The translations under genes were made by a program, and so were the position numbers. Shown here piece after piece: positions 33,141 through 36,322 of a stretch of DNA of 64,000 nucleotides. How positions within the stretch are numbered: the first letter of the stretch is position 1; the number at the start of each line of letters is the position of its first letter. The DNA is from Streptomyces sp. NRRL S-87. GTDB taxonomy: Bacteria; Actinomycetota; Actinomycetes; Streptomycetales; Streptomycetaceae. The notes under the pieces are model-generated. The model was not told the origin of the DNA. It did no database searches and saw only the letters and a program-made list of their open reading frames with translations. The stretch is taken from positions 49,214-113,213 of the forward strand of contig NZ_JOGB01000017.1 in the NCBI RefSeq assembly GCF_000719335.1, read 5' to 3'.

Positions 33141-33157
33141 GCCCGTAGGGTACGCGC

Positions 33158-36100
33158 GTGGCCACCCTCTTCCCCGCGCTGGAAGCGCCCTCCGACCGCA
33201 CCGCCGCGCGCAGCGGCGACCGCACCCTCAGCTACCGCGAACTCGCCGCCGCAGCAGGCGGGCTGGCGGCCCGCGTCAAGGACGCCGGACGGGTCGCCCT
33301 GTGGGCCACCCCCACCCTCGAGACCGCTGTCGGGGCGGTCGCCTGCCTCCTGGCGGGCGTACCCGTCGTACCGCTGAACCCGAAGACCGGCCGGCAGGAA
33401 CTCGCGCACATCCTGACCGACAGCACACCCTCGCTCGTACTCGCGGAGAGCGACGCTCGACTCCCGCTCGAACTGGCCGCGCTGCCCCGCATCGACGTGA
33501 CGGCCGACGCCCGGCCCCCCGCGGAACCCCACCCGCACCCGCACCCGCACGCCGACCCCGACATCCCCGACGAGGCCCCGGCCCTCGTCATCTACACCTC
33601 CGGCACGACGGGCCCCCCGAAGGGCGCCGTCCTCCCCCGCCGCGCCGTCGCCGCCACCCTCGACGCGCTCGCCGACGCCTGGGGCTGGACCGCCGCCGAC
33701 ACCGTCGTGCACGCGCTCCCCCTCTTCCACGTCCACGGCCTGGTCCTGGGCACCCTCGGCCCGCTCCGCCACGGCGGCGCCTTCCACCACCTGGGCCGGT
33801 TCTCGGCCGAGGCGGTGGCCCGCGCCCTCGGCGAGCCGGCCGTGCCCGGCGGTACGACGATGCTGTTCGGCGTGCCGACGATGTACCACCGGCTCGCGGA
33901 GGCCGTGGCCGCCGACCCGGCCCTGGCCAAGGCCCTGGCCGGCGCCCGGCTGCTGGTCTCCGGATCCGCCGGGCTGCCGCTCCACGACCACGAGCGGCTC
34001 GCCGCCGCCACCGGCCGCCGCGTCATCGAGCGCTACGGCATGACCGAGACCCTGATGAACACCAGCGTGCGCGCCGACGACACCACCACCGCGCCCGGCA
34101 CGGTCGGCGTCCCGGTGCGCGGCGTGGAGCTCCGCCTGGTCGACGAGTCCGGCGCCGAGATCACGGGCCCGGCGGCGTACGACGGCGAGACGATCGGCGA
34201 GATCCAGGTGCGCGGGGCGAACCTGTTCACGGAGTACCTGAACCGCCCCGGAGCCACGGCCGACGCTCACACGCCGGACGGCTGGTTCCGCACCGGCGAC
34301 ATGGCCACCCGCGACGCGACCGGCCAGGTGCGGATCGTGGGCCGCAAGGCGACCGACCTGATCAAGAGCGGCGGATTCAAGATCGGCGCGGGCGAGATCG
34401 AGAACGCGCTCCTCGACCACCCCGGGGTGCGTGAGGCCGCCGTCACCGGCGAGCCCGATCCCGACCTCGGGGAGCGGATCGTGGCGTGGATCGTGGCCGC
34501 CGACGAGCAGGCGCCGCCCGCCGCCGAGGAACTGGCCGACCACGTCGCCCGCCGACTGGCCCCGCACAAGCGGCCGCGCGAGGTCCGCTTCCTGGCCGCC
34601 CTCCCGCGCAACGACCTCGGCAAGATCATGAAGCGCGCCCTGACCGGCGCCACCGCCGACCGCACCGAACCCACCGCCGCACCCACGCCCGCGCCCACCC
34701 CCACAGCCGCGCCCCGAGCCGAACCCGCCGCAGCCACGGCCGGAGCCGGACCCGATGCGGCACCCGCACACCCCCTCGCCCCCGCACCCCCCACCCGCCT
34801 CACCGCCCGCGAGGCCGTCGCCGCCGTCGCCGACCCCGACAGCTTCGCCGAACTCCCCGTTCCCGCCCGGACCGTACGCCCCGACGGCCCCCTCGCCTGG
34901 CAGGGCTACGACGACGCGCACGCCCGCGCCGCCCGCCGGACCGGCGAGGCCGAGTCCGTCGTGTGCGGCACCGCGCGCGTGCGTGGCCGCGAAGCCGTCC
35001 TGATCTCCTTCGAGTTCGGCTTCCTCGGCGGTTCCCTCGGCGAACGCACCGGCGACCGGCTGGAGGCGGCGTACGCGTACGCGCGCGAGCACCGCCTCCC
35101 GCTGGTCTCCCTGATCGCCACCGGCGGCTCGCGCATGCAGGAGGGCATGCTCGCACTGACCCAACTGCAGCGCGTGGCACGCCAGTCGGCGCTCACCCGG
35201 GCCGCCGGGCTGCCGCAGCTGGCCGTGCTGCGCGATCCGACCACGGGCGGCGGCTGGGCCACGCTCGGCGCCGGTGCCGACGTGGTGCTGGCCCTCCCGG
35301 GCGCCCAGGTCGGCTTCGCCGGCTCCCGGGTCCGCCCCGCCGACGCCGATCCCGCCGCGTACACGGCGGAGGGTCAGTTCGCGGCCGGTCACGTGGACGC
35401 GGTGGTGCCGGCGCCGGAGCTCCCGGAGGTCCTCGGCGGCTGGCTGCACCTGCTGTCCGGCGTACCCGCCGCCGCAGGAACCACAGGGACCGCAGGAACC
35501 GCAGGAACCGCAGGAACCGCAGGAACCCCAGTAACAGCAGGCACCGCAGAAACCACAGAGACCGCACCCGCCCCATCCGCCCCACACCCCGACACGGCGC
35601 CCACCCCCGCCGACGCCCTGCCGGCCGGCCGGGATACGGACGCCCCGGCACCCGTGGCCCCCGCCGAACCCCCGGCCGCCCTGGCCGCCGCCGACCCCGC
35701 GCCCACCGGCTGGGACGCGGTACGGCGGGCCCGCGACCCGCGCCGGCCGCGCGCGGCCGCCTACCTGGACGCGTACTTCGACCTCCGCCTGCCGCTCTCC
35801 GGCGACCGGGCCGGCGGCACCGACCCCGGCATGCTCTGCGGCTTCGGGCTCCGCGGGGGCCGGACCATCGCGTACGCCGCCCAGTGCGGCACCGCCACCC
35901 GCCCCGCCGGCTACCGCACCGCCGCCCGGCTGGTCCGGCTCGCGGACCGGCTCGGCGTCCCGGTGCTGACCCTGGTGGACACGCCGGGGGCCGCGAACGA
36001 CGCCGCCGCGGAGCGGGCCGGCGCGGGGGCCGCCATCGCGGAGACCTTCGCCGCCGTCGCCGACGCGACCGTACCCGTGACGACGCTCGTGGTGGGCGAG

Positions 36101-36322
36101 GGCGGCTCGGGCGGCGCGCTGGCCCTGGCGGCGCCGGACAACACGTGGGTGACGCCCGACAGCTACTTCTCCGTCATCGCCCCCGAGCTGGCGGCGGCCA
36201 TCCTCAAGCGCCCCGCGGACCAGGCCCCCGCCACCGCCGACCAGCTCCGGCTGCGCCCGCAGGACCTGGTGGACCTGGGCGTGGCCCGCGGCATCGTCCG
36301 CCCGGCGGCCGACCGGGGCTGA
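33158..36322 (+). CDS. matB: Malonyl-CoA synthetase (MatB)-carboxyltransferase fusion
   Basis: This single 1054-residue frame joins two enzymes. Residues 1-495 are a MatB-type acyl-CoA synthetase: P-loop Y-T-S-G-T-T-G-P-P-K-G at 146-156, R-Y-G-M-T-E-T-L-M-N-T-S, G-R-K-A-T-D-L-I-K-S-G-G and the C-terminal K-I-M-K-R catalytic Lys. It should make malonyl- or methylmalonyl-CoA from the diacid, ATP and CoA. A Pro/Ala/Thr linker (about 495-545) leads to a carboxyltransferase beta-like half (about 545-770, E-F-G-F-L-G-G-S, A-T-G-G-S-R-M-Q-E-G). A second linker and an alpha-like half follow (about 845-1054, D-T-P-G-A, G-E-G-G-S-G-G-A). In S. coelicolor these are neighbouring separate genes. No zinc ribbon and no biotin domain are present. 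Confidence 0.9.
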   Translation: MATLFPALEAPSDRTAARSGDRTLSYRELAAAAGGLAARVKDAGRVALWATPTLETAVGAVACLLAGVPVVPLNPKTGRQELAHILTDSTPSLVLAESDARLPLELAALPRIDVTADARPPAEPHPHPHPHADPDIPDEAPALVIYTSGTTGPPKGAVLPRRAVAATLDALADAWGWTAADTVVHALPLFHVHGLVLGTLGPLRHGGAFHHLGRFSAEAVARALGEPAVPGGTTMLFGVPTMYHRLAEAVAADPALAKALAGARLLVSGSAGLPLHDHERLAAATGRRVIERYGMTETLMNTSVRADDTTTAPGTVGVPVRGVELRLVDESGAEITGPAAYDGETIGEIQVRGANLFTEYLNRPGATADAHTPDGWFRTGDMATRDATGQVRIVGRKATDLIKSGGFKIGAGEIENALLDHPGVREAAVTGEPDPDLGERIVAWIVAADEQAPPAAEELADHVARRLAPHKRPREVRFLAALPRNDLGKIMKRALTGATADRTEPTAAPTPAPTPTAAPRAEPAAATAGAGPDAAPAHPLAPAPPTRLTAREAVAAVADPDSFAELPVPARTVRPDGPLAWQGYDDAHARAARRTGEAESVVCGTARVRGREAVLISFEFGFLGGSLGERTGDRLEAAYAYAREHRLPLVSLIATGGSRMQEGMLALTQLQRVARQSALTRAAGLPQLAVLRDPTTGGGWATLGAGADVVLALPGAQVGFAGSRVRPADADPAAYTAEGQFAAGHVDAVVPAPELPEVLGGWLHLLSGVPAAAGTTGTAGTAGTAGTAGTPVTAGTAETTETAPAPSAPHPDTAPTPADALPAGRDTDAPAPVAPAEPPAALAAADPAPTGWDAVRRARDPRRPRAAAYLDAYFDLRLPLSGDRAGGTDPGMLCGFGLRGGRTIAYAAQCGTATRPAGYRTAARLVRLADRLGVPVLTLVDTPGAANDAAAERAGAGAAIAETFAAVADATVPVTTLVVGEGGSGGALALAAPDNTWVTPDSYFSVIAPELAAAILKRPADQAPATADQLRLRPQDLVDLGVARGIVRPAADRG
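35474..35527. repeat. 9-bp tandem repeat in the carboxyltransferase linker
   Basis: Six units of GCAGGAACC (one variant ACAGGGACC) are in frame and encode Ala-Gly-Thr repeats in the linker between the two carboxyltransferase halves. Confidence 0.8.

Follow-up and report, generated by a model that had tools for sequence, protein, structure and literature searches.

A MatB-Carboxyltransferase Gene in a Single Reading Frame

The window, by which we mean the whole 64,000-nucleotide stretch of Streptomyces sp. NRRL S-87 DNA analyzed here, carries on its plus strand a GTG-started gene of 1054 codons plus stop (33158..36322), which runs from a MatB half through a first linker into the β half and, after a second linker, the α half of a carboxyltransferase (CT). 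There is no internal stop, confirming the one uninterrupted 1054-codon frame claimed by the sequence-only reading. The domain order that it proposed, MatB followed by β-like and α-like carboxyltransferase domains, holds as well: in a Pfam scan of the fused protein, AMP-binding (residues 11-361, 225.7 bits), AMP-binding_C (residues 413-489, 75.3 bits), Carboxyl_trans (residues 586-742, 96.7 bits) and ACCA (residues 851-1048, 163.7 bits) all score above their cut-offs, and MdcE is sub-threshold (21.6 of 32.7 bits). Neither a zinc-ribbon, a biotinyl nor a biotin-carboxylase domain is among the Pfam matches, in agreement with the same reading, nor is the MCD domain (PF05292).

The MatB half (residues 1-496; 33158..34645, plus strand) has the domains of an ANL-superfamily malonyl-CoA synthetase. 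Its best solved structure is 3nyq, 'Malonyl-CoA Ligase' (E 1.3e-209, aligned over residues 1-496), which we take to be S. coelicolor MatB. The C-terminal Lys motif PRNDxGKIMK is present, and the alignment to 3nyq identifies its lysine as Lys489 (codon at 34622..34624, plus strand, in PRNDLGKIMKRAL), presumably the ANL catalytic lysine by its position. The NCBIfam model NF005858 (acyl-CoA synthetase) gives 689.3 bits against a cut-off of 575; two separate Streptomyces MatBs (from loci L009 and L024) reach 741 and 694.8 bits. With NF005702 (malonyl-CoA synthase) the MatB half falls below the cut-off (339.6 of 558), but so do the separate MatBs of L009 and L024 (370.2 and 342.8), and this model therefore seems to cover another MatB branch. 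Together, the ANL domains, NF005858 and the 3nyq alignment including Lys489 bear out the proposed malonyl-CoA synthetase with its C-terminal catalytic lysine. Judged by homology, this half is of the MatB type, a family that ligates free malonate to CoA.

The AccD-like β half of the CT (residues 547-769; 34796..35464, plus strand; PF01039 at 586-742) is without a zinc ribbon and matches AccD among solved structures (2f9y_B, E 5.9e-28), in an alignment that begins at AccD residue 54. The AccA-like α half (residues 849-1054; 35702..36319, plus strand; PF03255 at 851-1048) matches AccA (9m70_B, E 2.1e-34) and carries a GEGGSGGA loop, which we take to be the biotin side in AccA. The tandem crotonase carboxyltransferase fold extends across both halves. 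AccD and AccA of bacterial acetyl-CoA carboxylase are the nearest solved sequence relatives of the two halves, whereas the CT in the window has no zinc ribbon, no biotin carboxylase (BC) or biotin carrier (BCCP) within the protein and, by an alignment gap, lacks a stretch of about 11 residues of AccA. It also misses the cut-offs of the accD model TIGR00515 (123.7/317.45 bits), of TIGR00513 (136.7/319.3 bits) and of the AccA_sub model NF041504 (174.6/300 bits). P0049, an AccDA fusion with a cysteine ribbon, comes nearer to the AccA/AccD cut-offs than the CT, and still misses them. The models of malonate decarboxylase β (TIGR03133, 49.5/278.15 bits) and γ (TIGR03134, 28.5/237.15 bits) are missed too, and membership of the CT in the MdcD/MdcE family was rejected on these two scores. 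MdcD is found among the solved-structure matches of the CT (E 2.9e-10); MdcE is not, an absence that excludes nothing.

Linker 1 (residues 497-546, 50 residues; 34646..34795, plus strand) is rich in Ala, Pro and Thr, and short tandem repeats lie in its region at 34665-34702 and 34760-34810. Linker 2, between the CT halves (residues 770-848; 35465..35701, plus strand), is expanded by a repeat, a 9-bp unit present in 10.6 copies at 35472-35566. GC content by codon position dips in linker 1 (0.84/0.89/0.73), which could suggest a slip of the frame; the same dip occurs in linker 2 (0.80/0.84/0.70), and since linker 2 itself lies inside one conserved protein, the frame through linker 1 is credible and a slip was discarded. 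A frame that is open by chance or mis-called is ruled out by the open frame, the domain scores, the 3nyq match and codon-position GC. The last in-frame ATG or GTG before codon 602 is the ATG of codon 491 (34628..34630, plus strand), the first codon of MKRAL, and between codons 491 and 602 the frame contains no ATG, GTG or TTG; the CT has thus lost its own start codon. With one frame, a lost CT start codon and a gained linker, matB and a zinc-ribbon-less, AccDA-like CT have become one gene in this Streptomyces lineage. The gene would be expected to give a single polypeptide in the cell.

Separate, Overlapping Genes in Streptomyces Relatives

A contig scan confirmed at least 576 CT relatives, of which the best 80 loci were kept (79 Streptomyces and one 'Actinobacteria bacterium'), a set that may omit near relatives of the window and whose CTs are 64-75% identical to the window's (best segment). 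MatB lies directly upstream of the CT, in another frame, in 61/80 loci, where the two genes overlap by 8 bp (57 loci) or 4 bp (4 loci). The other 19 comprise 18 without an adjacent MatB and one with too little upstream DNA. Thirty-seven further regions, picked as best matches or longest frames (7/37 have the CT core of one of the 80 loci), gave a similar picture: 17 have an adjacent MatB, 19 have none and one is too short, with overlaps of 8 bp in 12, 4 bp in 4 and 11 bp in one, and with the CT always in another frame; a second in-frame start lies nearby in a few loci. This constant coupling points to joint work of MatB and CT. The earlier statement that the two are separate neighboring genes therefore stands for the Streptomyces loci examined; S. 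coelicolor, of which it was made, lies outside that sample. Compared with the Streptomyces matB-CT pair (by number SCO2444/SCO2445 in S. coelicolor, where SCO2444 is presumably MatB), the window has the same two proteins, adjacent and in the same order, but joins in one frame, through a 50-residue linker, what are there two genes in different frames with an overlap of 4-11 bp.

The proposed search for homologues with the same domain order returned no second fused example among the 80 loci and 37 further regions. Two protein searches (over 5.8 billion sequences, lengths 580-1844 aa) likewise list no protein that pairs an AMP-binding with a CT domain in their best 120 of 313 and best 120 of 380 matches, where the window's own protein is unlisted too. 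A DNA search of 392 same-genus genomes matched 44 at E 1e-100, and in the window's own genome alone among the 44 does the match run through the linker. Five long CT frames were considered as possible fusions and set aside: four (G037, G043, G063 and G131) have MatB in another frame, and G004 shows no MatB in the region examined. G289 was also dismissed as a second fusion; its DNA matched across the junction, yet its genes are not fused. As far as sampled, the fusion is confined to one lineage and combines known enzyme kinds in a new architecture.

In a tree of CTs, the three rows nearest the window are P0122, P0123 and P0124. P0122 and P0123 are the CTs of Streptomyces sp. NPDC101132 and NPDC086023, and the former is 86% identical to the window CT in the alignment. 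Both have the annotated N-terminus MKRALAAERLTARE, in which MKRAL is the MatB tail, so that a MatB tail peptide and the CT share a frame in two other strains; P0124 begins with MSARE. These kin bear on the view that faulty assembly or base calling created the single frame, or that the cell makes two proteins after all, from an internal start at ATG 34628 or by cleavage in the linker. The assembly is a draft of 255 contigs, no other fusion was met among the loci examined, and the two near kin have their CT annotated from the matching ATG, all of which would fit such a view. However, when 344 frame shifts were simulated from 34628 to 34799, only 1/344 yielded a MatB stop together with a CT start, namely the one-base shift directly before ATG 34628, which would create an ATGA overlap. 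Furthermore, linker 1 resembles the internal CT linker in composition, and MKRAL is in frame with the CT in both other strains. An error or a pair of proteins is thus very improbable, and the single-indel version survives only as a minor rival.

The CT is present in 31/37 same-genus genomes of one sample (E 1e-60). In 20/20 checked genomes that have the CT without an adjacent MatB, no MatB was found at E 1e-120, a search that did find MatB in 3/3 positive controls and in the window's genome; conversely, MatB occurs in 3/8 genomes that lack a match to this CT. MatB and CT are therefore not strictly interdependent. For the MatC_N malonate carrier (no match in this genome) and for MCD (0/37 genomes) the controls were silent, and these counts are no evidence of absence.

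Outside the Streptomyces CTs, the nearest branches are P0044, P0047 and P0048, metagenomic proteins with a CT 45-50% identical to the window's that is fused to a family III (CaiB-type) CoA-transferase. The CoA-transferase of P0044 is most like succinate--glutarate and CoA:oxalate CoA-transferases, below cut-off. As in the window, a related CT stands behind an enzyme that would make a CoA thioester, with a CoA-transferase where the window has the MatB ligase. By their domain content, then, two unrelated kinds of CoA-thioester maker are joined to one kind of CT. These CoA-transferase-CT proteins are few, and long-branched in the tree.

A Proposed Route from Malonate to Acetyl-CoA

We propose, at a chance that we put close to even, that the fused protein is a malonate-disposal enzyme in which MatB makes malonyl-CoA and the CT decarboxylates it to acetyl-CoA without biotin. 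The MatB half would ligate free malonate to CoA. The CT half would then remove the free carboxyl of malonyl-CoA in the manner of MdcD-MdcE, giving acetyl-CoA and CO2 without biotin, with the thioester presumably bound in the β half and the enolate stabilized at the β/α interface. The Ala/Pro linker may hang the CT on the mobile C-terminal subdomain of MatB, so that both would work side by side. The net reaction would be malonate + ATP -> acetyl-CoA + CO2, the job of MatB and MatA done with an unrelated decarboxylase. Rhizobium MatA-MatB (malonyl-CoA decarboxylase plus synthetase) shares this proposed net reaction and has MatB in common; MatA belongs to the MCD family (PF05292), which has another fold than the CT and whose domain is not among the Pfam matches of the fused protein.

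Decarboxylation is favored by the conserved MatB-CT coupling, by the lack of partner domains and by the related CTs fused to CoA-transferase-like domains. It is weakened by the scores of the CT, which are much nearer AccA/AccD than MdcD/MdcE, by the retained AccA-type GEGGSGGA loop, by the persistence of the CT in 20/20 checked genomes without a detected MatB, by the modest kcat of MdcD-MdcE on malonyl-CoA beside human MCD, and by the scarcity, metagenomic origin and long branches of the CoA-transferase-CT proteins. The chief doubt is the reaction of the CT, which sequence cannot settle.

The sequence-only reading had first suggested two routes to malonyl-CoA, ligation and transcarboxylation, with decarboxylation as an alternative. 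Converging routes now appear weaker, since the protein holds no biotin partner and the gene associations fit a make-then-remove pair; we favor the decarboxylation alternative as a proposal, even if the CT is more AccA/AccD-like than MdcD/MdcE-like. For the two routes to converge, the CT would have to be a genuine biotin-dependent carboxyltransferase that borrows BC and BCCP from a housekeeping acyl-CoA carboxylase, both halves making malonyl-CoA. This we consider rather unlikely: no partner domain is in the protein, the zinc ribbon is absent, all AccA/AccD cut-offs are missed widely (P0049, nearer with its cysteine ribbon, also misses), and the fusion of related CTs to CoA-transferase-like domains sits badly with a carboxylase.

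Another explanation is that the CT keeps extender-unit pools in order by decarboxylating a different acyl-CoA, for instance methylmalonyl-CoA or some other substituted malonyl-CoA. MatB enzymes also make methylmalonyl-CoA or other substituted malonyl-CoA, and the CT fold is common to CTs that handle methylmalonyl-CoA (1on3). Moreover, MatB cannot be the sole source of the substrate, as the CT is kept in 20/20 checked genomes in which MatB went undetected. The overlap with matB is, by contrast, constant wherever an adjacent MatB is present, and the substrate of the CT is not readable from its sequence; we regard this explanation as unlikely, with a small but real chance.

Returning to malonyl-CoA decarboxylation, a precedent is the biotin-independent malonate decarboxylase MdcD-MdcE (5vip/5vit/5vj1), a CT-like pair that decarboxylates a malonyl thioester without biotin (PMC5534430). 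Its natural substrate is malonyl-ACP made by MdcA, and the window CT misses the curated MdcD/MdcE cut-offs. In vitro, MdcD-MdcE shares with the CT of ACC the ability to decarboxylate malonyl-CoA; it does so without biotin, at a kcat 14-fold below that of human MCD, and Gln100, Tyr102 and Ser142 of MdcE are likely malonyl contacts (PMC5534430).

Carboxyltransferases have been linked to decarboxylation before. PMC6491548 describes some members of the group IV CTs as malonyl-CoA decarboxylases, so that the proposal is partly anticipated. It also treats SACE_3856 as orthologous to the MatA of S. coelicolor and Rhizobium; in the accessible text, the 'MatA' wording cites Rhizobium work and gives no S. 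coelicolor gene number. Naming of SCO2443-2445 is confused in PMC5447737, PMC10302056 and PMC4367926, where the roles of matB and matC are interchanged, the carboxylase subunits are given as 'SCO2445/44', and acetyl-CoA carboxylase is equated with SCO2445. CTs of this kind are labeled carboxyl transferase or acetyl-CoA carboxylase in records, and acetyl-CoA carboxylase in the available text of two papers. In the literature searched (among the titles and abstract starts listed) we found no report of a MatB-CT fusion, which may still be in print, and no assay of a CT of this kind.

Against these labels, the fusion hints at what a widespread enzyme, at present named for acetyl-CoA carboxylase, really does. 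We suggest, tentatively and as a claim that could well fail, that the zinc-ribbon-less AccDA-like CT of most sampled Streptomyces belongs to a class of its own, that of biotin-independent (substituted) malonyl-CoA decarboxylases, rather than being an acetyl-CoA carboxylase, and that the window encodes a self-contained enzyme taking malonate to acetyl-CoA in one polypeptide, which would make it the ligase equivalent of the CoA-transferase-CT fusions. Both kinds of fusion are pointers to the substrate of the CT. If the CT decarboxylates malonyl-CoA, the main antibiotic-producing genus has a mislabeled step that uses up the precursor from which fatty acids and polyketides are made, and the CT could be a deletion target, or a scaffold, for control of malonyl-CoA. 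The question of its function is testable with one purified protein.

Origin of the Fused Gene

Six nucleotides before the GTG start lies TAGGGT, a −10-like hexamer (33146..33151, plus strand) that may be a leaderless promoter of the fused gene. The arrangement TAGGGT, 6 nt, GTG precedes MatB in the window and in S. bambusae (L024); the other 55/56 scored MatB starts are without it. A like motif precedes the CT itself in 17/19 scored MatB-less loci (in one as TAGGCT), and L074, one of the two misses, shows it by eye. TAGGGT stands 4-8 nt upstream of 18/18,470 GTGs in the 80 loci, the motif sites at MatB and CT starts included. A scan for promoters and terminators returned no σ70-type site; on the minus strand it gave one terminator-like match, 0.5 being expected, and this carries no weight.

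In a maximum-likelihood tree of 47 CTs, the window, P0122-P0124, S. bambusae and the MatB-less clade belong to one clade of 21 rows (99/99), within which the branching order is partly open. Since a like motif precedes either MatB or the CT, the S. lavendulae clade seems to have lost MatB by a neat excision that brought promoter/start and CT together, whereas the window lineage joined the two genes. The tree and the layout of S. bambusae L024, where LysE, MatB and CT lie in a row with MatB and CT overlapping by 8 bp, fit a separate matB-CT pair as the prior state. LysE is also found upstream of the CT in 14/19 MatB-less loci of the best 80 and in 9/20 MatB-less ones among the further regions. 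A similar MFS gene lies downstream in both S. bambusae L024 and the window, with metG in between in the window.

The TAGGGT motif upstream of MatB and the carboxyltransferase

Directly 5′ of MatB, at 33146-33160 of the window, lies TAGGGT-6 nt-GTG, a possible leaderless promoter, and the same arrangement precedes MatB in S. bambusae. At loci that lack MatB, the motif stands immediately 5′ of the AccDA-like carboxyltransferase (CT), as in relatives L010, L011, L012, L014, L018, L021, L022, L027, L033, L043 and further loci. From this distribution, MatB appears to have been lost at those loci by a clean excision between promoter and CT.

Joined proteins and the linker between the CT halves

The CTs of two strains near that of the window, Streptomyces sp. 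NPDC101132 (P0122) and NPDC086023 (P0123), have their annotated start at MKRAL, which is the C-terminal peptide of MatB and here shares the reading frame of the CT; they are possibly unrecognised or re-split fusions. The linker between the CT halves differs in length among relatives; in the window it is extended by a 9-bp tandem repeat (10.6 copies, 35472-35566).

Other single proteins combine a CaiB/family III CoA-transferase with a related CT (metagenomic P0044, P0047 and P0048), a CoA-transferase with MatB (P0258), or MatB with a crotonase-like domain (P0256). The latter two look like adjacent genes joined by frame shift; they may point to a broader neighbourhood of malonyl-CoA genes.

For the S. 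coelicolor products SCO2443-SCO2445, passages of PMC5447737, PMC10302056 and PMC4367926 disagree, their versions including matB/matC with roles swapped and SCO2445/44 as carboxylase subunits.
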